Shown piece after piece: positions 19,435 to 36,433 of a DNA stretch of 60,867 nucleotides; position 1 is the stretch's first letter, and every line of letters begins with the position of its first letter. The notes beneath the pieces are model-generated. The model did not search any database. It was given only the letters and a program-made list of their open reading frames with translations, and was not told the DNA's origin. The translations under genes and the position numbers were made by a program. The stretch is from Nocardia sp. BSTN01. Lineage in GTDB: Bacteria; Actinomycetota; Actinomycetes; Mycobacteriales; Mycobacteriaceae. Location of the stretch: NCBI RefSeq assembly GCF_015354405.1, contig NZ_JADKYP010000045.1, forward strand, positions 1 through 60,867. Reading direction: 5' to 3'.

Positions 19435-19480
19435 ACCGTCACTCCTCGGCGATCGGGCGATGAAGGGGCTACCGGCATGG

Positions 19481-21675: not shown

Positions 21676-22281
21676 TCACCGCACGTTGGGCTCGTCCGCG
21701 AGGTAGGGCGGGGCCGGCTCGTACTGCATGTGTTCACGCACCCGCCGGGCGTGATCGCGGCCGTGCAGGGCCCCGATCAGCCACAGCGCCATATCGATGC
21801 CCGCCGAAATGCCTTGGGAGGTCACGAGATCGCCGTCCACGACGTACCGGCTCCCGGTCACCACGGTGACGTCGCCGCGGGCCTGGAGCGATTCGTGGAA
21901 CAGGCGGTGCGTGGTGATGCGCCGTCCGGTCGCCAGACCCGCCTTGTGCAGCAGGAACGCCCCCGTGCACACGCCCGCGGTCCAGTCCGCCCCGGCCGAG
22001 GTGGTGCGAATCCAGTCGACCAGGGCCGGATTGTGGACCTGGACGCGGGTGCCCTGGCCGCCGGGCACCAGCAGCACGTCGAGGGCGGGGTGGTCGTCGA
22101 AGGTGTGGTCCGGCAGAACGCGCATGCCGTTGACGCAGCGGATCGGATCGGTGCGTTCGGCGATCAGCACCGCGCGGTCCTGGTACTCGCGCAGCATCGC
22201 CGAGACCATGAACACCTCCCACGGCCCCGCGAAGTCGAGTTCCTCGACGTCCTCGAACAGCAGTACCCCATATGTCGTCAT
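21676..22281 (-). CDS. DJ-1/PfpI-family protein (isonitrile hydratase-like)
   Basis: A 201-residue class I glutamine-amidotransferase-fold protein. The conserved Glu is in 'LLFEDVEELDFAGPWEVF', and the nucleophile Cys in 'TAGVCTGAFLL', followed by a His-region 'TTHRLFHESL'. The sequence type is that of isonitrile hydratase and of the N-terminal domain of GlxA-like regulators, but no HTH domain follows. ATG at 22281 overlaps the MMPL stop as ATGA, so the two are translationally coupled. A hydratase, chaperone or glyoxalase role cannot be decided; coupling to an exporter facing a biosynthetic operon suggests self-protection or tailoring. Confidence 0.85.
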   Translation of the reverse strand: MTTYGVLLFEDVEELDFAGPWEVFMVSAMLREYQDRAVLIAERTDPIRCVNGMRVLPDHTFDDHPALDVLLVPGGQGTRVQVHNPALVDWIRTTSAGADWTAGVCTGAFLLHKAGLATGRRITTHRLFHESLQARGDVTVVTGSRYVVDGDLVTSQGISAGIDMALWLIGALHGRDHARRVREHMQYEPAPPYLADEPNVR

Positions 22282-24554
22282 GAACGTGGTTCCTCCGAGA
22301 GCTGACGTGGATCGGACGATTCGATGCTGCCCGGCGCTCGCCGCACCGGGCCCTCTTCCCGCCACTGATGACGGTTGTGCCAGCGCGCCAACGGTTTCGG
22401 CGCCCACCAGTTGGCGCGCCCCATCACCTTCATGAAGGCCGGCACGAGAAGTATGCGAACGAGGAAGGCGTCCGTCAGCACGGCCAGCGTCAAGCCGAAG
22501 CCGAGGCCGCGGGCGAACGACACCTGCGACACCATCATCGCGGCGAAGGCGATGGCCATGACGGTGGCGGCGGCCGTCACGATCCGTCCGCTGCGGGCGA
22601 GCCCCACCGCGACGGCCTGCCTGCTCCCGGCGTCGGAGCGATCCGAGCGCAGCCATTCCTCGCGGATGCGGGAGAGGACGAACACCTCGTAGTCCATGGC
22701 GAGGCCGAAAGCCATGCAGCCCAGCAGAATCGGCATCGTCACCACGGTGCGCCCGATGGCGGTGGTGCCGAGCCCGCCCAGGTGGTGATCCTGGAACACC
22801 CACACCATCGCGCCGATCGCCGCGGTCAGCGACAGGACGTTCATGACGATGGCCTTCAACGGCAGCACGACACTGCCGGTCATCATGAACAGCAGTGCGG
22901 CGGTGGCCAGCACCATCAGGGTCAGCGCGAGCGGTAGCCGGTCGCTGATGCCGTGCACCGCGTCCAGATCGCGTTGGGTCAGGCCGCCGAACAAGGTTTC
23001 GCCCGGCGCCGCAACGGCTTTGAGTTCGGCCAGCTGGTCGCGCCCGGCCTGCGAGAACGGGTCCTTCGTCGTCTGTACCGTCAGATACGCCGCATCCGCA
23101 TGGGCGGCCGCATCCGTCGCCCGGGTCGAGACCACCTGCCCCTTCGCGACGGTGGCGCCGGGGGATTGCACGGCGACGACCCCGTCGACCAGAGACAACC
23201 GCTGGGCGTAGGCGGTCAGCTCGGTGGCGGGCGGGGCGGCGTCCGGGAACACGATCGGGGTTCGCCCCTGGCTGTCCACCGGGAACTGCGCGCGCAACAC
23301 GTCACCGGTCTGTCGCGACTGCGTACTGCCCGGCAGCGCCCGGTCGTCGGGATAGCCGAACCGCGCTCCCAGCAGCGGCAGGCTCAGGATCACCAGGAGT
23401 CCGGACACCAGCACGATCACCGGGACGGCCCGGCGCATGGCGAACATCGCGCCCCGATACCAGGCGGTGCGCACCACCTCGGGAGCCGTCGCGCCGGAGC
23501 GGCCGAACAGCCGCCGGATCGGCGGCCGGACGTCGAGGCCGTCGAGCCGGTCGCCGAGTACGACGATCAGCGCCGGCGCCACCACCAGCGCGCCGATCAG
23601 GCAGAACGCGATGGCGCCCAGACCGCCGAAGGCCAGCGAACGCATGAAGTACATCGGGAACACCAGCATCACCGACATGGCGATGCCGACGGTCAGCGCC
23701 GAGTACGCCACGGTCCGCCCCGCGGTGTTGAGCGTGCGGATCAGCGCCTGCTCCGGTGTCAGGCCGGCGGCCTTCTCCTCGCGGAAACGGCTGATGATGA
23801 ACAGCGTGTAGTCGATGGCCAGCGCGAGGCCCAGGGCTTGCGCGACGTTGACCGCGAAGACCGCGACATCGGTGAACGACACCAGGATTCGTAACCAGGC
23901 CACCGATCCGGCGAGTGCGAACATCGAGATCGCGAGGGGCACCGCGGCCGCCAGGACGCTGCCGAACACCCACACCAGCACGATGAAGGTCAGCGGGATG
24001 GCGATCATGTCCATCTTCACCGCGTCCACCTGCGACTGGTGGTTCAGCTCGTACAGCGAGACCGCCTGACCACCGGCGGTGACCGTGACGCCGTCGCGAT
24101 CGCCGATCAGGGGGGTGGCGATGTCGTGGGCACGCTGCATGGCGTCCTTGTCGGTGCCCGCCACCAGACCGGCGATCAGCCCGGTGCGTCCGTCCCGGCC
24201 GGCCAGTGCCGACCGTTGCTGCGCCGGTTCGTCCCAGTAGGAGACGACCTGGTTGACCTGCGACGACTGATGCAATGCGGCGAGGATCGCCCCGGCCCGG
24301 TCGCGGGCGGGCGCGCTGTCCACACCGTCCGGCGCGGTGACGGCGAACACGAGGGAGAAACCGCCGGCGCCGAAGCGATCGGACAGGATCCGCTCGGCTC
24401 GGGAGGATTCGGCATCGGGTGGGTCGTAACCGCCGGCCGGTAGCTGTGTGAGCACCGAGGTGCCGAAGCCGCCGGCCAGCAGCAGGAACAGGAATGCGGC
24501 GATCAGGGTGATGCGCGGCGCTCGCAGTACGACCGCCGCCAGGCGGGTGAACAT
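22278..24554 (-). CDS. MMPL-family RND lipid exporter
   Basis: A 758-residue inner-membrane RND transporter with the two-fold MMPL layout: TM1 'LITLIAAFLFLLLAGGFG' type segment near residue 20, a periplasmic loop, five TM segments at about 180-340, a second periplasmic loop and a further TM bundle to residue 710. The conserved 'AIDYTLFIISRFREE' (first repeat) and 'AMDYEVFVLSRIREEW' (second repeat) carry the proton-relay Asp-Tyr pairs. ATG at 24554 with GGGAG 5 bp upstream. It faces the eight-gene carrier-protein operon across a 126-bp promoter region and overlaps the DJ-1 gene. MMPL proteins export lipids or siderophores; export of the neighbouring pathway's product is inferred. Confidence 0.92.
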   Translation of the reverse strand: MFTRLAAVVLRAPRITLIAAFLFLLLAGGFGTSVLTQLPAGGYDPPDAESSRAERILSDRFGAGGFSLVFAVTAPDGVDSAPARDRAGAILAALHQSSQVNQVVSYWDEPAQQRSALAGRDGRTGLIAGLVAGTDKDAMQRAHDIATPLIGDRDGVTVTAGGQAVSLYELNHQSQVDAVKMDMIAIPLTFIVLVWVFGSVLAAAVPLAISMFALAGSVAWLRILVSFTDVAVFAVNVAQALGLALAIDYTLFIISRFREEKAAGLTPEQALIRTLNTAGRTVAYSALTVGIAMSVMLVFPMYFMRSLAFGGLGAIAFCLIGALVVAPALIVVLGDRLDGLDVRPPIRRLFGRSGATAPEVVRTAWYRGAMFAMRRAVPVIVLVSGLLVILSLPLLGARFGYPDDRALPGSTQSRQTGDVLRAQFPVDSQGRTPIVFPDAAPPATELTAYAQRLSLVDGVVAVQSPGATVAKGQVVSTRATDAAAHADAAYLTVQTTKDPFSQAGRDQLAELKAVAAPGETLFGGLTQRDLDAVHGISDRLPLALTLMVLATAALLFMMTGSVVLPLKAIVMNVLSLTAAIGAMVWVFQDHHLGGLGTTAIGRTVVTMPILLGCMAFGLAMDYEVFVLSRIREEWLRSDRSDAGSRQAVAVGLARSGRIVTAAATVMAIAFAAMMVSQVSFARGLGFGLTLAVLTDAFLVRILLVPAFMKVMGRANWWAPKPLARWHNRHQWREEGPVRRAPGSIESSDPRQLSEEPRS

Positions 24555-24680
24555 AAGGCTCCCAAAGGTTGCGGGGCGGGCTCCGGCGGGTTGCACGCCC
24601 GCCGGGGCGTCAGTAGCATTCCGGAAGTCTCTCCTACTTATAAGTTATTTGTAGCATCGTGTTCCAGAATGGAGAAGCTG
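24555..24680. promoter_or_regulatory. Divergent promoter with ACTTATAAGT palindrome
   Basis: The 126-bp region between the MMPL gene and the carrier-protein operon holds a perfect 10-bp palindrome ACTTATAAGT at 24636-24645 in an AT-rich patch, plus a direct repeat GTAGCAT at 24613-24619 and 24651-24657 flanking it. This is a plausible site for one regulator controlling both directions. No regulator gene is directly adjacent. Confidence 0.45.
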
Positions 24681-25556
24681 ATGGTCGAAGCGGTCACCGC
24701 GGAGAAGATCGACGCCTACGACCTCGGATATATCGCCGGCAGCAGGCTGGAGACCGAGGACGGCGTGCACATCTACTACGAGCGCTACGGCATCGAATCG
24801 CCGACGACGATCGTGCTCATCCCGAACCTCTTCCTGATCGCCCCCCTGTGGCGCAACTTCAGCGCCGAGCTCGCGACCAAGTACTCCGTCGTCTCCTACG
24901 ACATGCGCAACAAGGGGGCGTCGACGCAGGTCGACGGGGTGGTGGACTTCGAGCGGCACATCCACGACCTGCGCGCCGTACTCACCCACCTCGGGGTCGA
25001 GCGGCCCTATCTGGTCGCCTCGTCGGACTCGACGCTGCTGGCCCGGGAGTACGCCCTGGCCTATCCGGACGAGGTCGGCGGGCTCGCGCTGTACGGCCCG
25101 GTCTTCAACGCGATCGGCGGCCGGCGGCGGCGCCGGCTGATCCAGGCGTGGCTGTCGACGGTGACGAACGTCGGCCCGACGGCGCTGTTCAACGAGATGT
25201 ATCCACTCATCTACTCGCACCACACCGTCGAATTCGGTGGCTCGCCCGCCTATCTCGCGCTGAAGGAACGATTCATCGCGTTGAGTTCGCAGCAGCAGTT
25301 GATCACCAACCTGAAGACGTCGCTGACGGTCAGTGACGAACCGGACCGCCTGCGCCAGATCGCCTGTCCGGTCCTGCTTTCCGCCGGCGAGAACGACTTC
25401 CAGACCTCCGCGGCGATGATGGGCGAGGTGGCGGCCATCATGCCCGATGCCGAAGTGGAGGTGATCCCGAATTCGGGCCACGCGCCGTACTTCGAGGCCA
25501 CCGCCGAATTCGAGGCCTCGATCGACCGGTTCGTCCGCGCGACACTCGCCCGCTGA
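24681..25556 (+). CDS. Alpha/beta hydrolase, first gene of the carrier-protein operon
   Basis: A 291-residue alpha/beta hydrolase. 'IVLIPNLFLIAPLWRNF' replaces the usual HG oxyanion motif, and the nucleophile elbow is the atypical A-S-S-D-S ('YLVASSDSTLLA') rather than G-x-S-x-G. An acid is present in 'LLSAGENDF' and the histidine in 'PNSGHAPYFE', so a triad is possible. ATG at 24681 is chosen for GGAG at 24671-24674; upstream ATG 24669 overlaps that site. It leads an operon with an AMP-ligase and ACP, so thioester release or substrate trimming is a reasonable inferred role. Confidence 0.82.
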   Translation: MVEAVTAEKIDAYDLGYIAGSRLETEDGVHIYYERYGIESPTTIVLIPNLFLIAPLWRNFSAELATKYSVVSYDMRNKGASTQVDGVVDFERHIHDLRAVLTHLGVERPYLVASSDSTLLAREYALAYPDEVGGLALYGPVFNAIGGRRRRRLIQAWLSTVTNVGPTALFNEMYPLIYSHHTVEFGGSPAYLALKERFIALSSQQQLITNLKTSLTVSDEPDRLRQIACPVLLSAGENDFQTSAAMMGEVAAIMPDAEVEVIPNSGHAPYFEATAEFEASIDRFVRATLAR

Positions 25557-25578
25557 CCGTCGCGGCCGAGGTCGAATT

Positions 25579-27006
25579 ATGACTACTTTCGACACCCTCC
25601 TGACCGGGTGGGCCGCCGATTTCGGTGACCGCACGGCGGTCGGCGACGGCGTCTCGGGCGGATACAGCTATCGCGATCTGGATGCGGCGGCTCGCGACGC
25701 GGCGGCCTGGCTGCACCGCGTCGTGCCGCGTCCGCCGTTTCTGCTCCTGCCCGGTAATACGCCCGACGACGTGGCATTCCTGCTGGGCGCCCTGCGGTCG
25801 GGCCTGGTCCCGTTGATCGGCGATCCGGCGTGGAGCGAACGCGAGATCGAGGACACCGCCGGCCGCACCGGCGCGTCCGTCGTGATCTCGGGACGGCACG
25901 GTGACAACCTGCCCGGCTACCGTTGCCGGGGCGGTGCGATCCGTACGGTGCGGCCCGGTGCCGGCGAGAACGACTGTGCCACACACGATCTGACCGACAT
26001 CGACTTCGGCCGCTTCACCTCCGGCAGTTCCGGCGCGCCGCGCTGTCTGGGATTCGGCAGTGCCGCCATGATCAATGCCGCGACGGCATGGCGCACCGCG
26101 ACCGGGCTCGACGCCGACGACTCGGTGATGTGTTTCGCCTCGCTCAACAACGGGCTCGCCTTCAACACGTCGTTACTACCGGTCTTCGCCTCGGGCGCCA
26201 CCCTGATCCTGCCCGGCGTGAGCCCGATTCCCTCACAGCTGCGCAGCGCGCTGCGTGACGCGGCGCCGTCGGTGCTGGTGGCATTTCCGTTCATCTACGA
26301 GGTGCTCGCGAAACGCGATCTCAGCGCGCTCACCTCGCTACGCCTGCTGGTGAGCTCGGCCGCACCGCTGTCGGCCGATGTCGAGCGCCGGTGGTCCGAG
26401 GCGGTGGGACGGCCGGTGTGCAACTACTACGGGCTGGCCGAAGTCGGCCCGGTGACCTTCAACGACGGCCGGACCGCGGGAGCGCTGGGCCGGGCGCTGC
26501 CCGGGGTGGACATCGCCACCCACCGGACCGGCGGCGCGGACGACCCGTCCGCGCGTATCGCGGTCCGGACGCGGTCGATGGCCACCCGGTACCTCGATCC
26601 CCGGCCGCCGGAATTCGGCAGCCATCTCGACGCCGACGGCTACTTCCGCACCCAGGATCTCGGATACCTCGCCGACGGCGACCTTTTCGTCACCGGCCGC
26701 GCCGACCGGATCGTCAACATGGCCGGACGCAAGATCGATCCCGGCGAGATTTCGGAGGTGCTGCAGCGCCATCCCGCCGTCACCGGCGCCCTGGTCCGCG
26801 GGGAGGGCGCCGGATCGGACACCGTGCTGTGCGCGTATGTGGAATCCGCCGCCGTGACGCGCGACGAGCTGGTCGAGCACTGCCGGAAATACCTGGCCCC
26901 CTTCAAGTTTCCGCAGCGCTGGTCGATCGTGCCGGTGTTGCCCCGATCCTCCGCGGGCAAGATCATGTCCGCCGGACTGGCAGCGATAGGAACAGCTTCG
27001 CGATGA
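25579..27006 (+). CDS. AMP-dependent acyl/aryl ligase (class I adenylate-forming)
   Basis: A 475-residue adenylating enzyme that activates a carboxylic acid as acyl-AMP and transfers it to a thiol. Core motifs: P-loop 'RFTSGSSGAPRCLGF' (147-159; Arg replaces the usual Lys), 'YYGLAEVGPVTFND', 'YFRTQDLGYLADGDLFV', hinge 'GRADRIVNMAGRKIDPGEI', and K461 in 'PRSSAGKI'. There is no Asp at the amino-acid-binding position after 'SLNNGLAF', so an aliphatic or aromatic acid is more likely than an alpha-amino acid. It is short for an NRPS module and has no fused carrier. Its TGA overlaps the ATG of the ACP gene, strongly suggesting that the ACP is its partner. Confidence 0.9.
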   Translation: MTTFDTLLTGWAADFGDRTAVGDGVSGGYSYRDLDAAARDAAAWLHRVVPRPPFLLLPGNTPDDVAFLLGALRSGLVPLIGDPAWSEREIEDTAGRTGASVVISGRHGDNLPGYRCRGGAIRTVRPGAGENDCATHDLTDIDFGRFTSGSSGAPRCLGFGSAAMINAATAWRTATGLDADDSVMCFASLNNGLAFNTSLLPVFASGATLILPGVSPIPSQLRSALRDAAPSVLVAFPFIYEVLAKRDLSALTSLRLLVSSAAPLSADVERRWSEAVGRPVCNYYGLAEVGPVTFNDGRTAGALGRALPGVDIATHRTGGADDPSARIAVRTRSMATRYLDPRPPEFGSHLDADGYFRTQDLGYLADGDLFVTGRADRIVNMAGRKIDPGEISEVLQRHPAVTGALVRGEGAGSDTVLCAYVESAAVTRDELVEHCRKYLAPFKFPQRWSIVPVLPRSSAGKIMSAGLAAIGTASR

Positions 27007-27263
27007 ACCACGCAGAGATCATGAGCACTCTCAAATCCCTGATCGTCAAGGAGTCGGGTGGGCAGATCGACGAGTCGGATATTCAGGGCGGCCCCGAATC
27101 GCTGCGCCGCCTGGGACTCAATTCGCTGGCGACCCTGCGCATTCTGGTGGCCGTCGAGGACGAGTTCGGCATCGAGTGGGACGACGATGTCGACGAGGCG
27201 GTCATGAGCGACGTGCAGGTGATGTGCGACCACATCGCGGACAAGCTGGGCATCCCGGCCTGA
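27003..27263 (+). CDS. Discrete acyl carrier protein
   Basis: An 86-residue carrier protein. The phosphopantetheine attachment site is S41 in 'LGLNSLATLRILV', with Asn in place of the usual Asp before Ser. 'VAVEDEFGIEWDD' after it gives the acidic helix II/III surface that docks partner enzymes. The ATG overlaps the ligase stop (ATGA). In the operon it probably carries the acyl chain past the dehydrogenase-like, nitroreductase-like and monooxygenase enzymes encoded downstream. No phosphopantetheinyl transferase is encoded nearby. Confidence 0.93.
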   Translation: MNHAEIMSTLKSLIVKESGGQIDESDIQGGPESLRRLGLNSLATLRILVAVEDEFGIEWDDDVDEAVMSDVQVMCDHIADKLGIPA

Positions 27264-27294
27264 CCCGCCCACCGAGCCGAAATCAGGAATCGCC

Positions 27295-28035
27295 ATGACA
27301 TCGAGCGCAACGCCCGCGCAACAGCGGCTGGCGGTCAATCTCGCCCTCGGCAGTCTGCAGTTGTCGGATACCGGGCACGACGACTTCAATCAGGGCCAGA
27401 TATCGGCCCGCCTGCCCCGCACCGACCATTTCTTGATCAAGAGCGCGCTGTGCGGCTTCAGCGAGGCGACGCCGACGGACATGATCCTCGCCGACGTCGA
27501 TCCGCAACGGCCGGTGCATCGCATGGCGCCGCCGGAACTTCCCCTGCACCAGGCGATCTACCGCGCCCGGCCGGACGTGAACGCGATCGTGCACAGCCAC
27601 GCGCCCAACACCTTGGTCTTCGGCGCTCTGGATGTGGAGTTGGCCGCACTCTCGCATGACGCCGCGCCGTTCGTCGACCGCTGCCCCCGATTCACGTCGA
27701 CCAGCAACACCATTCTCGACATCGAGACCGGCCGGGCCGTCGCGCAGGCGCTGGGCACCGCCCCGGCGGCCTTCCTGCGCAACCACGGCGGCGTGATCGT
27801 GGGGCGCACGCTGCGCCATGCCGTGGTCGCCGCGCAACTGCTGGAACGCGCCTGTGAACTGCAACTGAAGGCCCTGGCCACCGGGGTGAAGTTCTTCAGC
27901 TCGACCGGCAGCGACATCGACGCGAAAAACGACTACATCTACAGCGATATCGCGGTGAAGAGCTACTGGGATTACGGGGTGCGGGCGATGGAACAGCGCC
28001 ACCCGCACGTGCGGGACTGGGTGGTGGCGCCGTGA
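27295..28035 (+). CDS. Class II aldolase/adducin-family protein
   Basis: A 246-residue zinc-dependent aldolase-fold protein. It has Glu81 ('PPELPLHQAIY'), His100 and His102 ('VHSHAPN') and His164 ('LRNHGGVIVG'), matching the catalytic acid and three metal ligands of fuculose-phosphate aldolase. The full ligand set suggests an active enzyme for retro-aldol, decarboxylation or epimerisation of a hydroxy acid or sugar. ATG at 27295, 31 bp after the ACP stop. Placed inside a carrier-protein operon, it may make the small precursor or cleave an aldol-type intermediate; the substrate is unknown. Confidence 0.88.
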   Translation: MTSSATPAQQRLAVNLALGSLQLSDTGHDDFNQGQISARLPRTDHFLIKSALCGFSEATPTDMILADVDPQRPVHRMAPPELPLHQAIYRARPDVNAIVHSHAPNTLVFGALDVELAALSHDAAPFVDRCPRFTSTSNTILDIETGRAVAQALGTAPAAFLRNHGGVIVGRTLRHAVVAAQLLERACELQLKALATGVKFFSSTGSDIDAKNDYIYSDIAVKSYWDYGVRAMEQRHPHVRDWVVAP

Positions 28036-29381
28036 TCCGCATGGAACGGGTGCTGCGCCGGCAACAGCTCGACAGTTCCGCCTCCAAGGTCCGGCCCGTC
28101 TTCGGGCGGGTGCGGTCGGCGTCGTTGCGCGGGCCGGCCGTGCGCACGCCCGGTGACGACCGGCTGCGGACGCTGCAGCGACTGCTGGAATCCGGATACG
28201 GCTGCACGACCTCCGAGGGCGGCCGGATCCGCCGCCGCGCGCCCTCCGCGGGCGGGTTGTATCCGACCGAGGTGGTCTGCGTCGTCGCCCTGGAGGGGCA
28301 CTGGACGGCACTCGCCTACGACTTCCACCGCCGGCTCTTCCGGGAACTGGCCCGCATCGACCGCGATATCGTGACCGCCGTCTGCGCCGCCCGCGACGAT
28401 CAGGCCATCGTCGTGGTGACCAGCACGCTGTGGCGGACCTTGCAACGCTACGGATTTCGCGGCTACCGCTACTGCCTGCTCGACGCGGGGATCGTGATGG
28501 GCACCCTCGCCCAGGTGTGCGGCGCCGAGCGGCGCACGGTGAGCTATCCGGACAACTGGTCGCTGGCGCAGATCCACGAATCGCTCGCCCTGCCCGACAG
28601 CGAGATCGTCGCCTGCGCGGCGGTCGTGGACTGCGCCACGGCGGCGGCCGGTGATGTCGAGCAGCACCCCGATATCGTCACCGGGCCGGCCGTCTGGCAG
28701 CAATCACCCATGCTGGCAGCGGAATTGGAGCGGACGATCCGGCTCGACCGAGCCATGCGGGTGGCCGAGTCGCCGCACGATTGCCTGGTGCCCGTGGCGG
28801 CCGCCGCCGAGGTCCCGGCCGATCTTCAGGATCTGCTGGCCCGGCGCCGTTCGGCCCGGGGCCTGCGGCGAGGGCAGTTGGACTACGAACGCTGCGCACC
28901 GCTGTTCCGCGCGATCGGCGCGGCGCTGACGGACTGGCCGCAACGATTGCGTGACAGCATCGTCGTCGGTGTCGCCGTACGCGATGAGCGGGCCCGGACG
29001 GCCGCCGTCCGGCGGGCGGTGCCGGAGCCGGTGCGAGTCGCCGGCATCGGCCACCTCTCCGATTCGGCCGTGGCGGACCTGTTCGGCGGCCAGGCGCTGA
29101 TGGCCGACGCCGATCTGTTCCTGATCGCCGGAATGCGTTCGGACAGTGCGGAAGACGCCGTCGCGATGTTTCGCACCTGTCTGCTGCAGATCGGCCTGCT
29201 CACCGCCACGCTGCAACTGCTCGCCGTGCGCGCGGAGGTGGGGCACACGGTGGTCGGCGGATTCGACGACGAACGGCTGTCGACGGTGTTCGGCCACACC
29301 ATCACGCCGCTGATGGCGATCGCCTTGGGCACCGCGAATCAACTGACGACGAAGAACGACACGCTGAGGAGAACATCGTGA
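28032..29381 (+). CDS. Tandem nitroreductase-fold protein, SagB-like
   Basis: A 449-residue FMN protein of two nitroreductase-like halves. The first half (about 45-220) carries the SagB/McbC-type motif 'RRAPSAGGLYPTEV' at 68-81 and 'YCLLDAGIVMGTLAQVC', which form the FMN site. The second half (from about 245) has 'LARRRSARGLRRGQLD' and a C-terminal 'LLQIGLLTATLQLLAVRAEV'. SagB-type enzymes oxidise azolines to azoles in peptide natural products, but no precursor peptide or cyclodehydratase is present here, so an oxidation on the ACP-bound intermediate is more likely. GTG at 28032 overlaps the aldolase stop; ATG 28041 is an alternative. Confidence 0.83.
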   Translation: MIRMERVLRRQQLDSSASKVRPVFGRVRSASLRGPAVRTPGDDRLRTLQRLLESGYGCTTSEGGRIRRRAPSAGGLYPTEVVCVVALEGHWTALAYDFHRRLFRELARIDRDIVTAVCAARDDQAIVVVTSTLWRTLQRYGFRGYRYCLLDAGIVMGTLAQVCGAERRTVSYPDNWSLAQIHESLALPDSEIVACAAVVDCATAAAGDVEQHPDIVTGPAVWQQSPMLAAELERTIRLDRAMRVAESPHDCLVPVAAAAEVPADLQDLLARRRSARGLRRGQLDYERCAPLFRAIGAALTDWPQRLRDSIVVGVAVRDERARTAAVRRAVPEPVRVAGIGHLSDSAVADLFGGQALMADADLFLIAGMRSDSAEDAVAMFRTCLLQIGLLTATLQLLAVRAEVGHTVVGGFDDERLSTVFGHTITPLMAIALGTANQLTTKNDTLRRTS

Positions 29382-30400
29382 CCGGATATCTGGTCGACGG
29401 CGCCACCGAATTGCTCGGAGCCGCATTGATTCTGGAACTGCTGGACAGCACGGATCGGCCCGTCCATGCCGCGGCCGCACCGCATACCGGTGACGTCGCG
29501 ACGGTGTTGCGGGCCGCCGCGAGCGCATACGGATACGACGGCGAGAACGGCGACGGTTTCCTCGATCGCCACGCGGAACGGCTGCATATCGCCGAGAGCG
29601 CACAGGCCGCGCTCGCCTCCGGGACGATCGGCGAGGTCTGGCACTGCCCGCAGCGTGTGGTCGTCGAGGAGGAACTGCCCGGCGGGAATGTCGCCGTCGA
29701 CGTCGAGGCGGCCCGCGCGCTGCTCGCCGCCGCCGAGGCGGCCGGAGTGGCCCGGTTCGAACTGCTCGGCACGGCCTATGTGTCCGGGTCGGGTAACGAA
29801 TTCGAACGCAGCCAGATCACGATCGAACAGCTCGCGGGTGCGTCGGCGCTGACGAGCCGCATCTGGCGGACCGGCATCGTGACCGGTCACAGCCGCACCT
29901 TCGAGGCCGTGGGCACCTCGCCGTTCTACGGTCTGCTGGACGCGATCGCCCGCACCAAGCACGGGGTGGAAGCCCTGGTCGGCTCGCTGATGAGCATGCG
30001 CGCCATGGCGATCGCGCTCGATCCCGCACTCGAGCTGAATCTGGTTCCGGTCGATGCGGCGGTCGCCGCGATCGTCACCGCCTCCCGCGATTCCGGGGCC
30101 GGCGCCCCGGTCGTCCACGTGACCAATGCGCGGACCGTCACCCTGGGCCAGGTGCTGGCCGCGGCCTTCGACGCCCTGCGGATGGCGGCGCCCGACTACG
30201 TCGAGTCCACCGGGTCGTGCCTCGGCTTGGAAGAGTTGTGCGATGCCGAAATCCGCTCCTACGGTTCATGTTTCACCGTATCGAAGGAGTTCGTCGGTGG
30301 TGGTGCGTCCACCGGTGGCGCGCTCGATGTCGAGATCTCGCCCCAGGTGCTCGCCGGGCTCTTCCGGGCTCGCGCCGGGCTCGTCGAAGCGGGGCGCTGA
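29378..30400 (+). CDS. Degenerate extended SDR, thioester-reductase-like
   Basis: A 340-residue protein resembling the NAD-binding domain of thioester/fatty-acyl reductases (male-sterility/Lys2 type). The dinucleotide motif is G8-A-T-E11-L-L-G14, with the middle Gly replaced by Glu. 'LGTAYVSGSGNEFERSQ' matches the region that normally holds Y-x-x-x-K, but Tyr is Phe142 and Lys is Gln146. 'IWRTGIVTGHSRT' and 'LVPVDAAVAAIV' are well conserved, so the fold is intact while chemistry looks lost. GTG at 29378 overlaps the nitroreductase stop. It may be a binding or scaffold protein, or an enzyme with altered catalysis. Confidence 0.75.
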   Translation: MTGYLVDGATELLGAALILELLDSTDRPVHAAAAPHTGDVATVLRAAASAYGYDGENGDGFLDRHAERLHIAESAQAALASGTIGEVWHCPQRVVVEEELPGGNVAVDVEAARALLAAAEAAGVARFELLGTAYVSGSGNEFERSQITIEQLAGASALTSRIWRTGIVTGHSRTFEAVGTSPFYGLLDAIARTKHGVEALVGSLMSMRAMAIALDPALELNLVPVDAAVAAIVTASRDSGAGAPVVHVTNARTVTLGQVLAAAFDALRMAAPDYVESTGSCLGLEELCDAEIRSYGSCFTVSKEFVGGGASTGGALDVEISPQVLAGLFRARAGLVEAGR

Positions 30401-30401
30401 G

Positions 30402-31508
30402 GTGGGCTTCGACCGCGAGGCCTTCACCACCATCGCCGATACGCTGAACCCGGAGGAGGTCGCCGCCCAGGAAGCCGCCGGGGCCCACCCGGGCGAACTC
30501 TTCCGCGCGCTGCTCGACACCGGGCTTGCCGAACTCGTCATCGCCGGTGCGCCGGGGTCCGGCGACCGCTGGGCCTTCTGCTCGGCGATCTCCGACCTCG
30601 CGCAGCGCTGGGTCGGCCTGGCGGAATCCATTCACTACCAGGTGCTGTCGATCTGCGCCTTCGCCGAATCGGGCTCGCCCGACCAGCATTCACGCTATCT
30701 CGAGGCCATGTGCCGCGGCCGGCTGATCGCCTCGAACTGCTTCAACGAGGCGGGGGCGGGCTCGGATCTGGCGGCGATGCGGACCTCGGCCCGGCGCACC
30801 GACGACGGCGACTACGTCCTCGACGGCACCAAACAGTGGATCGGCCACGCCCAGATCGCCGACCTGCTGTTCGTCTACGCCAAAACCGCCGATCGCGGTC
30901 TGCGCGGGATCACCTGCTTTCTCGTGGACGCGCATGCGCCCGGTATCACGGTCACGCACCGCCCGAAAACGACCGGCGCCGGCAGCCTCCCGTCCGGTGA
31001 TATCCGCTTCGACTCGGTCACGCTGCCGGCCGACAGCGTGGTGGGCCGGGTGAACCGCGGCATGCTCGCCGGCGAGAGCCTGTTCACCCAGGGCCGGTTG
31101 GGGGTGGCCTCCTGCGCGGTCGGCCTGGCTCGCGCAGCGATGGGCCGGGCCGGCGCCTATGCGGCCGAACACCACCAATTCGGCAGTCCGATCATCGATT
31201 TCCAGGGCGTCGCGTTTCCGCTCGCCGAGATCAGCACCGATATCGCGGCGAGCGCGGCGCTGCTACGGGCGGCGTGCGCCGCGGTCGAAGATCAACGTCC
31301 GGACGCGCAAGTGCTTGCCGCCCAGGCGAAACTGCACGCGACCCGCACGGCCCGGCGGGCCACCGACACCGCCATCGGCACCCTCGGCTCGCGGGCCTTC
31401 GACGCGGCCGAACCGGTCCTGCGGTGGGCTTCCGAAGCGCATCTGCTGGAAGTGGTTCAGGGCACGCCGCAAATCCAGAAGATCGCCATCGCGGCGCAAT
31501 TACGTTAG
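30402..31508 (+). CDS. Acyl-CoA-dehydrogenase-like flavoprotein without the catalytic Glu
   Basis: A 368-residue acyl-CoA dehydrogenase fold. 'NEAGAGSDLAAMRTSA' and 'GTKQWIGHAQIADLL' bind FAD and substrate; 'EHHQFGSPIIDFQGVAF' is the C-domain signature. The usual base in 'YEGT' is Gln353 ('VVQGTPQIQ'), and the alternative isovaleryl-type position ('FTQGRLGVAS') has Gly, so neither known catalytic glutamate is present. In ACP pathways such enzymes oxidise carrier-bound acyl groups (for example prolyl to pyrrolyl). The GTG at 30402 lies 1 bp after the preceding stop; a longer frame from 30126 overlaps the SDR gene and is unlikely. Confidence 0.85.
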   Translation: MGFDREAFTTIADTLNPEEVAAQEAAGAHPGELFRALLDTGLAELVIAGAPGSGDRWAFCSAISDLAQRWVGLAESIHYQVLSICAFAESGSPDQHSRYLEAMCRGRLIASNCFNEAGAGSDLAAMRTSARRTDDGDYVLDGTKQWIGHAQIADLLFVYAKTADRGLRGITCFLVDAHAPGITVTHRPKTTGAGSLPSGDIRFDSVTLPADSVVGRVNRGMLAGESLFTQGRLGVASCAVGLARAAMGRAGAYAAEHHQFGSPIIDFQGVAFPLAEISTDIAASAALLRAACAAVEDQRPDAQVLAAQAKLHATRTARRATDTAIGTLGSRAFDAAEPVLRWASEAHLLEVVQGTPQIQKIAIAAQLR

Positions 31509-31517
31509 GAGCCAACG

Positions 31518-32654
31518 GTGCTGCCCACCTCTTTCGGATGTTTCACCCTGCCATTCCATCCGCCCCGGCAGGACCCCTTCCACTCGCTCGGCGACGATAT
31601 CGACCTGGTGTTGCTGGCGGAGGATCTCGGTTTCGACGAGATCTGGATCGGCGAGCACCACGCCGGTGGGTGGGGCACCTTGACGGCGCCCGACCTGCTG
31701 ATCGCGGCGCTCGCCCGGGAAACCCGCGCCATCCGCCTGGGAACCGGGGTCGTGCCGCTGCCGTACCACCACCCCGTGCACGTGGCCGAACGAATCCTGC
31801 TGCTGGACAACCTCACTCGCGGACGTGCGCTGCTCGGCTGCGGCCCGGGAGCCTTCGTGCAGGACATGGAGATGATCGGCGTGGACCCGGCGCAGGTGCG
31901 GCCGCACTTCGCCGCGGCACTGGAAACGGTGACGGCGCTGGTGCGCGGCGAGACGGTCGACGTGCACACACCATGGTTCACCGCACGAGAGGCCCAGTTG
32001 CAGCTGCGGCCGTATCGCGAACCCGTCGAGGTCGTCGTGGCGAGTTCGCTCGGCGACCCCGCGATCGAACAGCTGGCCGGCACCGGCACGCACCCGCTGG
32101 TGAATCTGACGCCGCCGTGGGGTGCGCTGCGGGCCGGTATGGTCGGCGATCCGATCGGTCAACTGGCACAGCGACTGTCGGTGCTGCGAGAACGCGCGGC
32201 GGGGCCGATCCGCCTGAATGTCTTCGTGCACGTGAGCGACTCGCGCGAAAGCGGTATCGACGAGATCTTCGAGGGCTGGATGCGGCAGCGCCTCGAGCTG
32301 TACCGGGGCACGCTCGGCATGCCGGTGCCCGGATCGGAGAGCGCGGGCCGGTCCGCACTCGAGGCGTTGATCGACGCCGGGGCCTTCATCGTCGGGCCGC
32401 CGCAGAGCTGTGTCGAGCGGATCACCGAATTGTCGACGCGGCTGGGCGGTCTCGACACCCTGATCCTGTTCGTGCCGGGGTGGGTGCCGAACCCGCTGCT
32501 GGAACGTAGTCTGCGCGCCTTCGCTCGCGAGGTGGCACCGGCACTGCGCGGCTGGCACGCGGGTGTCGAGAAATCCCTGGCAGCGGCCACCGCCGGATCC
32601 GCTCGGCGCGCCGAGTTGCGGGCAGCCATGGCGAACGCGCCCGTCGGCGTCTGA
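31518..32654 (+). CDS. Luciferase-like (LLM) flavin-dependent monooxygenase
   Basis: A 378-residue bacterial-luciferase-fold oxidoreductase using FMNH2 or F420H2. Features are 'LVLLAEDLGFDEIWIGEHHAG' (the E-H-H motif), 'IRLGTGVVPLPYHHPVHVAERI', 'GRALLGCGPGAF', and 'FIVGPPQSCVERI' near the C-terminus. Chain length and the EHH motif fit flavin monooxygenases such as alkanal-type enzymes, but F420 use cannot be excluded. GTG at 31518 has GGAG 9 bp upstream, 9 bp after the dehydrogenase-like stop. It is the last gene of the operon, ending 17 bp before a strong hairpin. Oxygenation of the ACP-linked or released product is the inferred role. Confidence 0.9.
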   Translation: MLPTSFGCFTLPFHPPRQDPFHSLGDDIDLVLLAEDLGFDEIWIGEHHAGGWGTLTAPDLLIAALARETRAIRLGTGVVPLPYHHPVHVAERILLLDNLTRGRALLGCGPGAFVQDMEMIGVDPAQVRPHFAAALETVTALVRGETVDVHTPWFTAREAQLQLRPYREPVEVVVASSLGDPAIEQLAGTGTHPLVNLTPPWGALRAGMVGDPIGQLAQRLSVLRERAAGPIRLNVFVHVSDSRESGIDEIFEGWMRQRLELYRGTLGMPVPGSESAGRSALEALIDAGAFIVGPPQSCVERITELSTRLGGLDTLILFVPGWVPNPLLERSLRAFAREVAPALRGWHAGVEKSLAAATAGSARRAELRAAMANAPVGV

Positions 32655-32664
32655 TCGGCGGCGG

Positions 32665-33210
32665 TCAGGCTCCTCCCGCCAGGCGGGAGGGGCCACCGCC
32701 GTCGCGGCCGATCGCCTGCAGTACGCGCCAGCCGTCGCCGACCCCGCCGAGGCAATAGTCGCGCGGAAGTTCCACGCGGTCGAGAAGGACGGTGTCCACA
32801 TCGGCCCGAGGGGTGGCCCTGGCCTTGGCGACGGCCACGCCGGGTGCCGTCATATCGCAGATGAAGCAGGTGAGGCCGTCGTATCCGGTCGCGGCCGGAT
32901 CGGTGCGTGCCAGCAGCAGGCCCCAGCGGGGTGCGTGCCTGCGGACGCCGAGCAGTTTGGTGCCGATGACGGACCAGTACCCGCCCATCCAGCAGGCTCT
33001 GGTCTGGACATCGGCCAACTCGGGGCCGGAGGCGAATTCGTCCAGTAGTTCACACCATTCGGCCCCCTGCGCCAGCGGCCGGGGCCAACCGGCCGCGCGT
33101 TCGTGCGCGAGATAACGTCTGATCCGGTCCCCGGCGTCACCGGTTCCGGCGGTACGGCGACGAATGCGGAACGCGGTGAGTTCATGGTGGTCTGCCGACG
33201 CGGTGGGCAT
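32665..33210 (-). CDS. Stand-alone acyl-CoA-dehydrogenase middle domain
   Basis: A 181-residue protein corresponding only to the central beta-barrel domain of acyl-CoA dehydrogenases: 'WMGGYWSVIGTKLLGVRRHA', 'GLTCFICDMTAPGVAVAKAR', 'DTVLLDRVELPRDYCLGGVG'. The N-terminal helical and C-terminal FAD-binding domains are missing, so catalysis as a dehydrogenase is not possible alone. The ATG at 33210 has an excellent ribosome site, GAAGGAGGG, and the frame is open, so it looks expressed rather than decayed. Residues 1-60 do not match the family. It is divergent from the GntR gene and convergent with the operon. Regulatory or partner role versus remnant is open. Confidence 0.65.
   Translation of the reverse strand: MPTASADHHELTAFRIRRRTAGTGDAGDRIRRYLAHERAAGWPRPLAQGAEWCELLDEFASGPELADVQTRACWMGGYWSVIGTKLLGVRRHAPRWGLLLARTDPAATGYDGLTCFICDMTAPGVAVAKARATPRADVDTVLLDRVELPRDYCLGGVGDGWRVLQAIGRDGGGPSRLAGGA
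32672..32690. terminator. Perfect hairpin ending the carrier-protein operon
   Basis: Nine-base perfect arms CCTCCCGCC/GGCGGGAGG separated by one base, 17 bp after the LLM stop. It is also coding for the last residues of the convergent small dehydrogenase-like gene. Likely bidirectional terminator. Confidence 0.6.
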
Positions 33211-33294
33211 CGTTCCCTCCTTCGAATCACAGCCATTCTCGAAGCCCCCGGCCGTGCCCCGCTCGTCGCTTGTGAACGAACCGGCGTCCGGTCC

Positions 33295-33313: not shown

Positions 33314-33400
33314 ACCGCCGGTAACGAAGACCGCATGCCCCGGTCTCTAGGCTGAAGGCAGTTGTCGGACGAGCGGTGGAACCGGACAGGAGAACGGTGG

Positions 33401-34150
33401 GTGGCGGCAGTACGCAGTGAGGGCTCGCCGGGCAGGTCCCGCAGGCAGCGATCCCAGCTCTCCGACCAGGTCGCTCACGAACTCAGGGCCCGGATCATGG
33501 CGGGCACGCTGCGCCCCGGGGACGCGATCCACCTGGAGGACACCGCTGCCGAACTCGACGTCAGCATCACACCGTTGCGCGACGCGCTGCTGACCCTGCG
33601 CGGCGAGGGTTTCGTCGAACCCGGCGCGCGCCGCGGCTTCGTCGTCAGCGAACTCAGCCGCGACGACGTCATGGATGTGTTCTGGCTGCAGCGGCAGATC
33701 GCGAACGAATTGGCCCGCCGCGCGGCGCGCCGGCTCACTCCGGAGGTGTCACAACGGCTCGACGACCGGATCGGCTCGTTGCGCGCGGCGGTCGCCGGCG
33801 GTGATGCCGAGGCGATCTCCGATGCCGAGTTCGCCTTCCACCGCGAACTCAACCATCTGGCGCGCGCGCCGAAACTGGCGTCGTTCCAATTGAAGATGGG
33901 CTGGTACGCACCGCATCGCCTGTATTCGGCCGATCGTTCCTGGGGTGAGTTCGCCGTCGCCAGTCACGAGCGGCTGGTCGCCGCGATACGGCGCGCCGAT
34001 ATGGACGAAATCGACGCCGAGACGCGGGTGCTGTTCGCCGACGCGGCTCAGCGCCTGCTCGCTCATCTGGATCGGGTCGGGATGTGGGGGGAGGCCGCCG
34101 ACGAGTCGGGCGCCGATTCCGGGGACGGCCGCTCGGCGATGCGTTCGTAG
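33401..34150 (+). CDS. GntR-family regulator with FCD ligand domain
   Basis: A 249-residue FadR/FCD-type regulator. The winged helix is 'VAHELRARIMAGTLRPGDAI' through 'VSITPLRDALLTLRGEGFVE'. The FCD domain shows the metal/ligand pattern 'EFAFHRELNHLA' and 'SHERLVAAIRRADMDEIDA'. Chosen start is GTG 33401, with AGGAG 8 bp upstream; TTG 33362 would add 13 residues. FCD regulators sense acids or amino acids. Its 3' end overlaps the convergent DapB-like gene by 88 bp. Two matching palindromes (33295 and 34877) point to control of itself, the small dehydrogenase-like gene and the DapB-like gene. Confidence 0.9.
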   Translation: MAAVRSEGSPGRSRRQRSQLSDQVAHELRARIMAGTLRPGDAIHLEDTAAELDVSITPLRDALLTLRGEGFVEPGARRGFVVSELSRDDVMDVFWLQRQIANELARRAARRLTPEVSQRLDDRIGSLRAAVAGGDAEAISDAEFAFHRELNHLARAPKLASFQLKMGWYAPHRLYSADRSWGEFAVASHERLVAAIRRADMDEIDAETRVLFADAAQRLLAHLDRVGMWGEAADESGADSGDGRSAMRS

Positions 34151-34806
34151 AGTTGTGCGGCGGTGAACCAGCCCGCGGGCAGCCGCACCAACTCCCCGGC
34201 CAGCCGCAAGGCCCCCAGTGCCGCCGCCCGGATGTCGCGCACGGAATGGTTGAGCTCCAACGTTTCCGGGCCCGCGGTGAAGACGACGTGATGGTCGCTG
34301 ACCATCGGTCCATACCGCACGGAGGTGATGTCGGCGTGCCCGCCCATCGTCTCCCGGAGCAGGCGTGCGGTTCCGGACGGGGCATCGCGTTTGGTGGTGG
34401 GGTGACGATCGAGGATCGTCGTCTCCATATCGTCGCTGATCGCCCCCGCCAGCTGCGCCGCCAACGCCGCCGTCCGCATCTGAATCCAGTGCAGCGGACT
34501 GAGATTCGTGGCCAGGGCGACGGGAATCTCGGCGCTCAGTTCGCGCAGCAGGCGCAGCCGCTCACTGCCGGGATTCGAGACGCAGTACAGCAGGGGAGAA
34601 CCGGTGCGCCGGCACAGTTCCGCCGTAACATCCAGTGCCGCAGGGCTGCTCGCGTCCACGACGACATCCGGACGCTCGACGCCGATCCGCCGGCCGCGGG
34701 ACCACACCTCGGCCACGATCGGCAGCCCGCACCGCGCGCATTCGCGGGCGACGGCACTACCGAGCCGGCCGGTGGATCCCACGATGGCGACCGTGTTCAC
34801 ATCCAT
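34063..34806 (-). CDS. DapB-like dihydrodipicolinate reductase paralogue
   Basis: A 247-residue NAD(P)-dependent reductase resembling 4-hydroxy-tetrahydrodipicolinate reductase. The N-terminal Rossmann motif is 'VAIVGSTGRLGSAVARE', and the catalytic segment 'DRHPTTKRDAPSGTA' includes His135 and Lys139 plus the dipicolinate-binding S-G-T. No other lysine-pathway gene is nearby, and regulation by a GntR protein suggests a secondary, probably imine- or keto-reducing, role rather than housekeeping lysine synthesis. ATG at 34806; a candidate GntR site lies 71 bp upstream. The last 88 bp overlap the convergent GntR gene. It is not certain that the housekeeping dapB is elsewhere. Confidence 0.82.
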   Translation of the reverse strand: MDVNTVAIVGSTGRLGSAVARECARCGLPIVAEVWSRGRRIGVERPDVVVDASSPAALDVTAELCRRTGSPLLYCVSNPGSERLRLLRELSAEIPVALATNLSPLHWIQMRTAALAAQLAGAISDDMETTILDRHPTTKRDAPSGTARLLRETMGGHADITSVRYGPMVSDHHVVFTAGPETLELNHSVRDIRAAALGALRLAGELVRLPAGWFTAAQLYERIAERPSPESAPDSSAASPHIPTRSR

Positions 34807-34919: not shown

Positions 34920-36167
34920 CTATCCGGGGCCGGTGTCGCCGGCGGATTCGTCGATGCCCAGCGATGCCGCGCATCGCAATGCGACCTCGAGCTCCAGGCG
35001 CCGCGCCTCGATGGGATGACCGAGTAGGTGTTCGATGCGTTCGAGGCGGTACCGGACGGTGTTGCGATGCACCCCCAGTTCGCGGGCGGTGGATTCCACA
35101 CTGCACATCCGCTCCAGATAGCACCCGAGGGTCTCGCGGAGCCGGGCCAGCGCCGCCCCCGGCCCCGACAGGGCACTGAGTTCGCGCTCGACGAAGGCGT
35201 GCATCGCCTCGGCGTCCTGGCTGACCAGGTAGTCGAGTTCGACCGAGTCGTAGAGCACCATCCGGCCGGTGCGTCGCCGCATACGCTGAATGCGTTGCGC
35301 CGCCAGAGATTCGAGATGACTGCGGCGAAATCCGGCCAGTCCGGACGCGGGGCGGCCGAAGGCGAGTCGCATCGAACCGGTCGCGGCCAGGCCGGACAAC
35401 TCCGGGGTGGCGCACCGGTTGGTGCGGGCCCAGGCCCACACGGTGCGGCTTCCGCCCGCCAGGGCGAAACTGCCGCGCGCGTCGAGCTGTGCCGCGATGC
35501 GCTGGGCGGCCCGTTCGAGGTCGGCGAGGCTGCCGGGCGCGTCGTCGTCGAGCCACAGCAGATAGGCCAGGTGGACGTCGTCGAGGCAATATCCGAGCCG
35601 CAGTTCGGCCACCGCGGGATCGATGACCGACCCGGACACGATCGCGCGCACCGTCTCGCGGCGGCGGGCGAACCGGCCGGACTGGTCGGGGGCGTGCTGG
35701 GTGGCGAAGGTCGGGCTGAGTTGTTCGACGCAGGTGCCTGCCCAGTCGGTGACGCATCCGGCCGCGTGCCGGACCAGCTCACGGGTGGCGTCGGCGTCGA
35801 GGGAGGCCAGGCTGATCTGATCGGTCAGGACCCGGATCATCGCCTGCTGTCCGGAACGGTAGATGCGCAGCAGGACCCGCAGGTCCATGCCGTTGTGCGC
35901 GATCGACTCCGCGAGCACGTACGCCTCGTCCGGGAGTTCGGTGGGGGTGGCGCCCGTCGCGAGGTTGGGCAGCATGATCCGGCCCAGGGCCAGCGTGCTC
36001 GCGTGCAGATTGGCGCGCAGCGCGGGCGTATCCATCTCCGGCACGTCCCGCAGGATGTGGCCGTCGGTGTAGGCGACGATCGACTCGAGTTGCTTGTGAT
36101 CGAGTAGGTCCGGGATCAGGCTGTCCAGCCATGCGCGGGCCTCGCGTCCGATCGTCGCACCGGTCAT
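34920..36167 (-). CDS. PucR/CdaR-type transcriptional regulator
   Basis: A 415-residue regulator: an N-terminal all-helical sensory part ('DLLDHKQLESIVAYTDGHILRD'-type region), a central GGDEF-like CdaR section ('VRAIVSGSVIDPAVAELRLG') and the C-terminal PucR HTH 'CSVESTARELGVHRNTVRYRL'. Such proteins often activate catabolic genes lying divergently. ATG at 36167 with GGGGGT upstream; the frame is open further upstream but without support. It is divergent from the aldehyde dehydrogenase operon, and two perfect palindromes lie in the shared promoter region. It could also influence the DapB-like gene downstream on the same strand. Confidence 0.9.
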   Translation of the reverse strand: MTGATIGREARAWLDSLIPDLLDHKQLESIVAYTDGHILRDVPEMDTPALRANLHASTLALGRIMLPNLATGATPTELPDEAYVLAESIAHNGMDLRVLLRIYRSGQQAMIRVLTDQISLASLDADATRELVRHAAGCVTDWAGTCVEQLSPTFATQHAPDQSGRFARRRETVRAIVSGSVIDPAVAELRLGYCLDDVHLAYLLWLDDDAPGSLADLERAAQRIAAQLDARGSFALAGGSRTVWAWARTNRCATPELSGLAATGSMRLAFGRPASGLAGFRRSHLESLAAQRIQRMRRRTGRMVLYDSVELDYLVSQDAEAMHAFVERELSALSGPGAALARLRETLGCYLERMCSVESTARELGVHRNTVRYRLERIEHLLGHPIEARRLELEVALRCAASLGIDESAGDTGPG

Positions 36168-36257
36168 CACACCCCCATCCGCGAGTCGTGTCGATGCGAA
36201 CCGGCTCGCAGCAGCCATTGCCGAAAGGAGTGTGCGGGACTCGCTTTCGAATGTCAG

Positions 36258-36302
36258 GCAGCTTACCAAGCTGCGACTCCCGTGTGAAGGCATGTGCCTT
36301 CA
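36258..36302. promoter_or_regulatory. Two palindromes in the PucR/aldehyde dehydrogenase promoter
   Basis: GCAGCTT-ACC-AAGCTGC at 36258-36274 and TGAAGGCA-TG-TGCCTTCA at 36285-36302 are both perfect inverted repeats, 10 bp apart, in the 266-bp divergent region. Their size and pairing suit dimer binding by the adjacent PucR protein or another regulator. Confidence 0.5.
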
Positions 36303-36433
36303 GTCCAAGATCGGCGCCCGGAATTGGGCCGATTCATCCAAGCCGATGTCCGCGCATCCATGCCAGGCTCGCCCGAACGGCACGGCTACGAGGACCGAGC
36401 CGATTGCCCGCGATATGGCGCACAGGAGCAGAC

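Follow-up and report, generated by a model that had tools for sequence, protein, structure and literature searches.

A six-gene acyl-carrier cassette in Nocardia, shared with the paulomycin cluster and probably devoted to a short carrier-bound acyl unit

CLOSEST DESCRIBED SYSTEMS

The locus treated here lies in Nocardia sp. BSTN01 (genome 7.8 Mb), in a stretch of 60,867 nt (contig NZ_JADKYP010000045.1 of assembly GCF_015354405.1) that is called the window throughout. Eight plus-strand open reading frames (ORFs), designated A to H, are contiguous there from 24681 to 32654; five of them, with a sixth gene (K) beyond the range 24555-32654, form a set that recurs in other genomes. As judged by sequence comparison, this core consists of a free-standing acyl-AMP ligase (B), a free acyl carrier protein (ACP; C), a class II aldolase-family protein (D), a tandem SagB-like flavoprotein (E), an acyl-CoA-dehydrogenase-like (ACAD-like) protein (G) and a DapB-like reductase (K). 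It is probably a portable cassette that makes a short ACP-bound acyl unit, with the transfer and export of that unit left to cluster-specific genes.

The nearest described relative is the gene cluster for paulomycin, an antibiotic with a moiety, paulic acid, that is 2-isothiocyanatobut-2-enoic acid. Six of its genes, pau33-37 and pau39, correspond to plm31-35 and plm37 of S. albus J1074 (PMC4425429 and PMC4802897). They share with the window the tandem SagB-like, ligase, ACP, DapB-like, class II aldolase-like and ACAD-like functions, and are adjacent in pau; the window has K separate and on the opposite strand, and adds A, F, H, I, an MMPL exporter and regulators. In PMC4425429, Pau33 and Pau36 are left without an assignment, Pau37 is given to allose formation, and Pau33 and Pau35 are likened to KedU31 and KedU34 of kedarcidin; the printed cluster also has phosphopantetheinyl transferase (PPTase), KASIII-like, ThiF-like and desulfurase genes. 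Among the matches listed in the open-licence literature, the pau table was the sole source on KedU31-34, and no description of the six-gene set as a general module was seen; the text of a paper on co-evolving modules (PMC6395733) contains no paulomycin, kedarcidin or nitroreductase.

The window is a Nocardia subtype of a cassette that has already been sequenced in paulomycin, where its roles are unexplained. An original prediction, made from the letters of the DNA, had taken A to H for a pathway with an unrecognised combination of genes. Once the DapB-like gene is added, that combination equals pau33-37 plus pau39; K itself (34063-34806) and the recurrence of the set in many genomes had been overlooked. 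A match to a characterised cluster had been named as grounds for abandoning the prediction, and this holds by half: the product, paulomycin, is known, though with no established part for these genes in making it.

DISTRIBUTION OF THE SIX-GENE CORE

The six genes travel jointly across actinobacterial families, to go by profiles of E, K, B, C, D and G searched in six-frame ORFs of 29 cassette-type loci. These comprise 14 loci from Nocardia, 9 from the ‘Streptomyces group’ (the genus of G735, taken to be Streptomyces), 5 order-level loci (L064-L068) and L054. The complete core was present in 25: 18 of the 22 loci of a first set, and all 7 additional Nocardia loci (one with K apart). The controls were 12 loci from the Streptomyces group, each about 20 kb long apart from one of 16.5 kb, taken around lower-scoring SagB-like hits; none of them was a profile seed. 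The same search found the complete core in 0/12 of these and K, C, D or G in none; in two the ligase profile matched weakly, at 96 and 64 bits (versus at least 488 in the cassettes), and in two there was a weak match to a luciferase-like monooxygenase (LLM). Failure of the genes to co-occur in related genomes, which the original prediction had offered as its own undoing, was thus not what was found. That the window belongs to the six-gene carrier cassette appears very likely; its core scores are E 477, K 351, B 625, C 107, D 438 and G 554 bits, values partly produced by construction as the window and same-locus sequences served as profile seeds. Over 25 loci (L066, L067, L068 and L133 were excluded), pairwise identity matrices of the six core proteins show correlations of 0.74-0.98, a range inflated by the inclusion of near-identical relatives.

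Distribution is patchy. The window SagB query matched in 10 of 251 genomes of the family; four of these matches (L050-L053) are non-cassette, with none of the other five core genes present. The E profile matched 14/151 Nocardia genomes at an E-value of 8.8e-70 or better (the next at 2.2e-24) and 9/392 Streptomyces-group genomes at 1.2e-76 or better (the next at 9.9e-25); few candidates were scored per genome, and such prevalence figures are lower bounds. Five lower-scoring hits among the 19 of the E profile in Nocardia, and a hit in G138, stand outside the locus comparison. The DapB profile matched in 157 of 296 class-level genomes, and these are mostly taken to be ordinary DapB.

RELATION TO THE PAULOMYCIN CLUSTER

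One cassette locus, L127, is together with its flank L134 a paulomycin-type cluster, by gene content and protein lengths. Genes for elongation factor G, pyruvate dehydrogenase (PDH) beta, a glycosyltransferase, PhzE, DAHP synthase, RmlA/RmlB and pyranose oxidase were recognised by eye, and KASIII and ThiF-rhodanese genes in L127 by similarity to proteins Pfam-checked in L065 and L131. Protein lengths, from simple gene calls on genes mostly named by eye and not by Pfam, compare with those in the printed table as follows: elongation factor G 706/709, PDH beta 345/345, glycosyltransferase 426/426 and thymidylyltransferase 289/289 aa. Since L127 belongs to a cluster of paulomycin type, the six core genes can be equated with pau33-37 plus pau39. 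Identity between window and L127 is 38% for B, 59% for D, 38% for G, 37% for K and 27% (partial) for E.

A sugar role for the aldolase D was considered and rejected. RmlA and RmlB queries found no match in 30 cassette stretches, with a reach of about 10 kb, except for RmlA in L066, which has no D. A search of that reach would miss L127's own sugar genes; 34 flanking stretches were hence added, and these gave no match except in L134, the paulomycin-type flank. With RmlA and RmlB nearly unmatched around other cassettes, D more likely serves an acyl pathway than a sugar. Because the set recurs where RmlA/RmlB queries match no sugar genes nearby (the RmlA of L066, a locus without D, being the exception), Pau33, Pau36 and Pau37 can be placed in one carrier-bound pathway, as candidates for the source of paulomycin's unexplained isothiocyanate acid.

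CORE PROTEINS AND THE SHARED STARTING ACID

Gene families are as first named, the MMPL and DJ-1/PfpI proteins included. The ligase B (25579-27006, plus strand; PF00501, 124.2 bits) has the motif NGLAFNT. In the form NGL[AG]FN, at the acyl-pocket stretch, this motif is found in all 29 cassette ligases, the window's among them, and in none of six other ligases matched by the same profile. The common motif argues for one starting acid for all cassettes, a proposition we hold to be reasonably likely. In the adenylation superfamily, Asn for Asp at this place in the pocket argues against an ordinary alpha-amino acid. The ligase motif and the five partners also provide a search handle for clusters without an adjoining polyketide synthase (PKS) or non-ribosomal peptide synthetase (NRPS) module; as first noted, none of the block genes scanned showed a PKS or NRPS domain.

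The carrier C (27003-27263, plus; PF00550, 26.5 bits) is a free ACP of 86 aa with the site LGLNSL. D (27295-28035, plus; PF00596, 123.1 bits) is the best-conserved core gene, with 48-59% identity to its counterparts in 20 non-window-type loci compared; PPE[LI]PLH, HSHAP and NHG, its metal and acid motifs, are kept in 26 of 27 copies.

E (28032-29381, plus; PF00881, 41.9 bits) merits the name ‘tandem’ that it was given at the outset: its profile matches 3eo7, a putative nitroreductase of 511 aa, over 36-429, and the two halves match different types, the first the BmdC oxidase and McbC, the second ordinary nitroreductases. BmdC's oxidase domain and McbC are SagB-family azoline oxidases, homologous to the first half of E; E, by comparison, is a tandem protein that stands free, and its 60.4 bits against the SagB peptide dehydrogenase model TIGR03605 fall under the cut-off of 78.4. 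Its place below that cut-off led to rejection of a SagB system for ribosomally synthesised and post-translationally modified peptides (RiPPs); no search was made for YcaO or precursor peptides.

K (34063-34806, minus strand) exceeds the PF05173 cut-off at 57 bits. In HH-x-x-K-x-DAPSGTA, the active-site motif of 4-hydroxy-tetrahydrodipicolinate reductase (DapB), it keeps the first His and the Lys and has Pro for the second His, a change that fits an altered substrate. The other DapB of the genome, at C135, is an ordinary one (110 bits). Elsewhere in the genome, contig C99 (L124, 10840-11280) encodes part of a DapB-like protein, 146 aa long and with 39.5% identity to K; in the 20 kb compared around it, no other core gene was seen apart from a weak ligase-like match.

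These features of E and K also bear on another proposal, that the cassette makes an N-heteroaromatic acyl-ACP, azole-like or pyridine-like, with D and K building or reducing a ring that E and G aromatise. The likeness of the first half of E to the NRPS oxidase BmdC and to McbC would suit it, as would the His and Lys retained in K. Kedarcidin contains a pyridine amino acid, and the printed comparison of Pau33/Pau35 with KedU31/KedU34, mentioned above, points the same way. However, paulomycin, the sole known product found beside a cassette, has no ring that needs such a route, and none of the block genes scanned showed a cyclisation domain. The proposal is unlikely.

PROPOSED PATHWAY AND ITS PARTNERS

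A common product can be suggested from the protein families. B would load a short carboxylic acid on C, and D, E, G and K would rework the carrier-bound acid: D by carbon-carbon cleavage or decarboxylation, E by oxidation dependent on flavin mononucleotide (FMN), G by ACAD-type chemistry and K by reducing an imine-like intermediate with NAD(P)H. The result would be a short acyl group on the ACP, bearing nitrogen and probably alpha,beta-unsaturated, such as is turned into paulic acid in paulomycin. That the product is indeed a paulic-type unit is a tentative assignment, somewhat less likely than not.

The partners of the core vary by lineage, as if a common acyl unit were passed to different acceptors. 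KASIII-like proteins occur in L127 and L065; condensation-type proteins in seven Streptomyces-group loci (L125, L126 and L128-L132, weakly in L132); ThiF-rhodanese proteins in L127, L131 and L181 (a flank of L130, in G1189); and a conserved protein without a Pfam match, labelled ‘GNAT-like’ by eye, stands with an MMPL exporter in 9 of the 14 Nocardia loci and in L054. Handover would accordingly differ: a KASIII-like protein would act in the paulomycin-type locus, the condensation-type protein in the seven Streptomyces-group loci, and the GNAT-like-labelled protein with MMPL in the nine of Nocardia. In the window, H would oxygenate the unit, A would release or transfer it, and the MMPL protein would export it.

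The other Nocardia cassettes (L047, L048, L049 and L167-L172) have the six core genes, MMPL and the ACAD Gln (see below) in common with the window. They differ in having the GNAT-like-labelled protein and either a class III aminotransferase with a short-chain dehydrogenase/reductase (SDR), or a BioF/serine-palmitoyltransferase-like enzyme; neither H nor F was matched in them. The SDR of L047, the sole copy aligned from this group, keeps its Tyr and Lys. The BioF-like enzyme was found by model in L048 and by eye in L171 and L172, and suggests that these three might make a capped sphingoid-like lipid.

Two related Streptomyces-group cassettes, L131 (16412-17551) and L130 with its flank L181 (from 10927), are accompanied by a condensation-type protein, by a ThiF-rhodanese gene to one or the other side and, by eye, by ABC-exporter-like genes; they are candidate clusters for another isothiocyanate-type product.

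A wider scenario can be framed. A cassette for a reactive nitrogen-bearing acyl-ACP, the precursor of a bacterial isothiocyanate such as paulic acid, would have spread in actinobacteria; in Nocardia it would serve to cap lipids or small molecules for export; and the window lineage would have rewired it around a Glu-to-Gln ACAD-like protein and an LLM oxygenase, towards a new class of product. In this full form the scenario is speculative, and we think it unlikely.

Several observations weigh against a common paulic-type pathway. Four of the 29 loci miss at least one core gene: L068 lacks G; L133, a 5.5-kb contig, lacks G and has a partial D; L066 and L067 lack D and have K and G weak. The Glu of the ACAD motif EGT is the catalytic base, and the window's G has Gln there (QGT), so that a Glu-base ACAD is not what the motif describes; Gln is present in all 15 copies of Mycobacteriaceae type (read by script in 14 and by eye in L171) and Glu in 10 of 10 readable others, L127 included. 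In the RKYG motif of E, Arg replaces Lys in 5/5 window-type loci and L064 (6/29), Lys being present in 23/29; E is only 20% identical to its L127 copy over aligned columns. No paulomycin-like sulfur-transfer or acyl-transfer gene was matched in the window-type loci. The connection of pau33-39 with paulic acid is itself a printed proposal, one that names Pau34, Pau35 and Pau39, not Pau33, Pau36 or Pau37. Feeding data with L-Met, L-Thr and alpha-ketobutyrate are quoted in PMC4802897, and these may stem instead from the 2-methylbutyrate side chain.

PROTEINS OF THE WINDOW-TYPE LOCI

The proteins peculiar to the window type bear on how its product would be released and oxidised. A (24681-25556, plus; PF00561, 56.3 bits) is an alpha/beta hydrolase, a candidate thioesterase or acyltransferase: its gene is present in 5/5 window-type loci, and the nucleophile Ser and distal His are kept in all four sequences aligned. 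F (29378-30400, plus; a weak match to NAD_binding_4) resembles thioester-reductase SDRs, but is a pseudo-SDR: Phe and Gln or Ser take the positions of the catalytic Tyr and Lys in the window, L013 and L035, whereas both residues are kept in 8 of 8 other homologues aligned. Against the thioester reductase model TIGR01746 it scores 20.8 bits (cut-off 213.35), and the combination of a Tyr-x3-Lys pair with TGxxGxxG is not seen in it. F is probably not a reductase. With Tyr and Lys gone, and with no F matched in the lineage G317, release of the product by F is unlikely, and thioester-reductase release was rejected on these grounds.

G (30402-31508, plus; PF00441, 96.3 bits) poses a similar problem, since simple desaturation by a Gln-bearing ACAD is doubtful. 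The same trio of ligase, carrier and ACAD-fold protein is seen in the prolyl-carrier dehydrogenase systems of PigA and RedW, but G is without the Glu and reaches 146 and 136 bits against those models (cut-offs 500 and 650); such scores led to rejection of a pyrrole-type trio. What had been foreseen of the pathway survives in part: the picture of a free ligase and ACP carrying a small acid for tailoring, with an exporter adjoining, agrees with the comparisons made here; reductive release by the SDR and simple desaturation are doubtful.

Taken together, the residue changes in F, G and E argue that the window lineage has probably altered the chemistry. A harsher construction has the window-type cluster in decay, or its chemistry changed, such that it yields little or a different product. 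The loss of expected catalytic residues from three proteins would fit, as would gene I, an ACAD fragment. Yet the reading frames are intact, distant lineages show the same losses, and conservation is good in D, in B and at the ACP site; such decay or change we consider unlikely.

H (31518-32654, plus; PF00296, 133.9 bits), the LLM, is found in 7/29 cassette loci: the five of window type, L064 and L132. Its best model is TIGR04020 (MupA/Atu3671), at 83.9 bits under a cut-off of 244.45. By analogy with BtrI/BtrJ/BtrO, the butirosin pathway, an amino acid might be loaded on the ACP and there undergo decarboxylation and, by H, hydroxylation. A free ligase, an ACP and an LLM do stand together here, and H finds its best model in MupA/Atu3671; but the shortfall in that score, the restriction of H to seven loci and the want of a pyridoxal-phosphate (PLP) decarboxylase among the block genes scanned make this route improbable.

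Two other Nocardia loci, both non-cassette, encode an A-like hydrolase, an F-like SDR that keeps Tyr and Lys, and a ligase: L041 (6993-12837), which also has MMPL, and L043 (8139-12220), which by eye also has a carrier-like protein. Loci of this type are possibly the source of A and F.

LAYOUT OF THE LOCUS AND ITS NEIGHBOURS

All eight ORFs A to H have intact frames and are closely packed: the widest gap is 31 bp (C/D), well within the 55 bp first given for them, there are 4-bp overlaps at B/C, D/E and E/F, and the F/G gap is 1 bp with the start chosen for G. The closely related N. kruczakiae and N. mikamii have the same block, with proteins about 89-98% identical (F about 87-88%). In a distant Nocardia, G255 (L035), DJ-1, MMPL, A-H, I, J, K, L and M are all present. 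The block from DJ-1 through the aldehyde dehydrogenase (ALDH) is, on this comparative evidence, inherited as one unit. A third lineage, G317 (L173-L175, 50 kb), has A, B, C, D, E, G, H, M, L and I within about 13 kb, one extra gene preceding I, and K about 11 kb past H; F, MMPL, DJ-1 and J were not matched in those 50 kb. Retention in both G255 and G317 makes K a pathway member, although it lies 1.4 kb past H on the minus strand. A single same-strand run of the six core genes is a variable trait: the window lacks it, and K is separate in L132 and G317 too.

Upstream, the MMPL-family exporter (22278-24554, minus; PF03176, 223 bits) diverges from A. Its ORF is open to 24596, with a conserved ATG at 24554; the L035 copy is 79% identical and has an equivalent Met start. 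In the same direction follows a DJ-1/PfpI-family protein (21676-22335, minus; PF01965, 94.8 bits; 79% identity to the G255 copy). The divergent promoter region (24555-24680) had been predicted to be shared by both sides, and alignment of four sequences shows the intergenic region common to the A operon and MMPL/DJ-1 to be conserved. A, the first gene, has its start codon at 24681 (ATG), preceded by a TATAA-TTATTTGT block and a GGAG ribosome site that are also present in L035; a promoter scan of the shared region found no sigma-70 consensus.

At the other end, the hairpin noted at the outset, at 32657-32703, is real and strong, its surrounding 71 nt folding at -49.9 kcal/mol (z -4.2). It lies between the convergent genes H and I and was not among the results of a terminator scan, which omits it because no T run follows downstream. 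Gene I (32665-33213, minus; PF02770, 19 bits, below cut-off) encodes a short stand-alone ACAD middle-domain piece of 182 aa, matched in 5/5 window-type loci; in G317 the copy is longer, extending past the end of the stretch compared.

Beyond I stand a GntR/FCD regulator (J, 33362-34150, plus; by Pfam), a PucR-type regulator (L, 34920-36293, minus; by Pfam) and a succinic-semialdehyde-dehydrogenase-like (SSADH-like) ALDH (M, 36131-37999, plus). M, whose N terminus is uncertain, scores 479.6 bits against PRK09407 (cut-off 521) and is 84% identical to the G255 copy and 78% to that of G317. The conservation of these genes alongside the core (GntR/FCD in 4/5 window-type loci, PucR and SSADH-like ALDH in 5/5) lends something to the idea of a catabolic operon, in which acid activation, ACAD, aldolase and the SSADH-like ALDH would act in sequence under GntR and PucR control. 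The dedicated ACP, the patchy distribution, the occurrence in a paulomycin-type cluster and the adjoining exporters all speak against catabolism, which is very improbable.

Rhodanese-like and cysteine-dioxygenase-like genes lie at 19045-20077 (minus), also in L013 and L014, and were not found in L035; a sulfur link through them is possible but unsupported. About 4.5 kb past DJ-1, at 15703-17196 (minus), is a gene whose FAD-dependent product belongs to the tryptophan-halogenase family (135 bits to PF04820).

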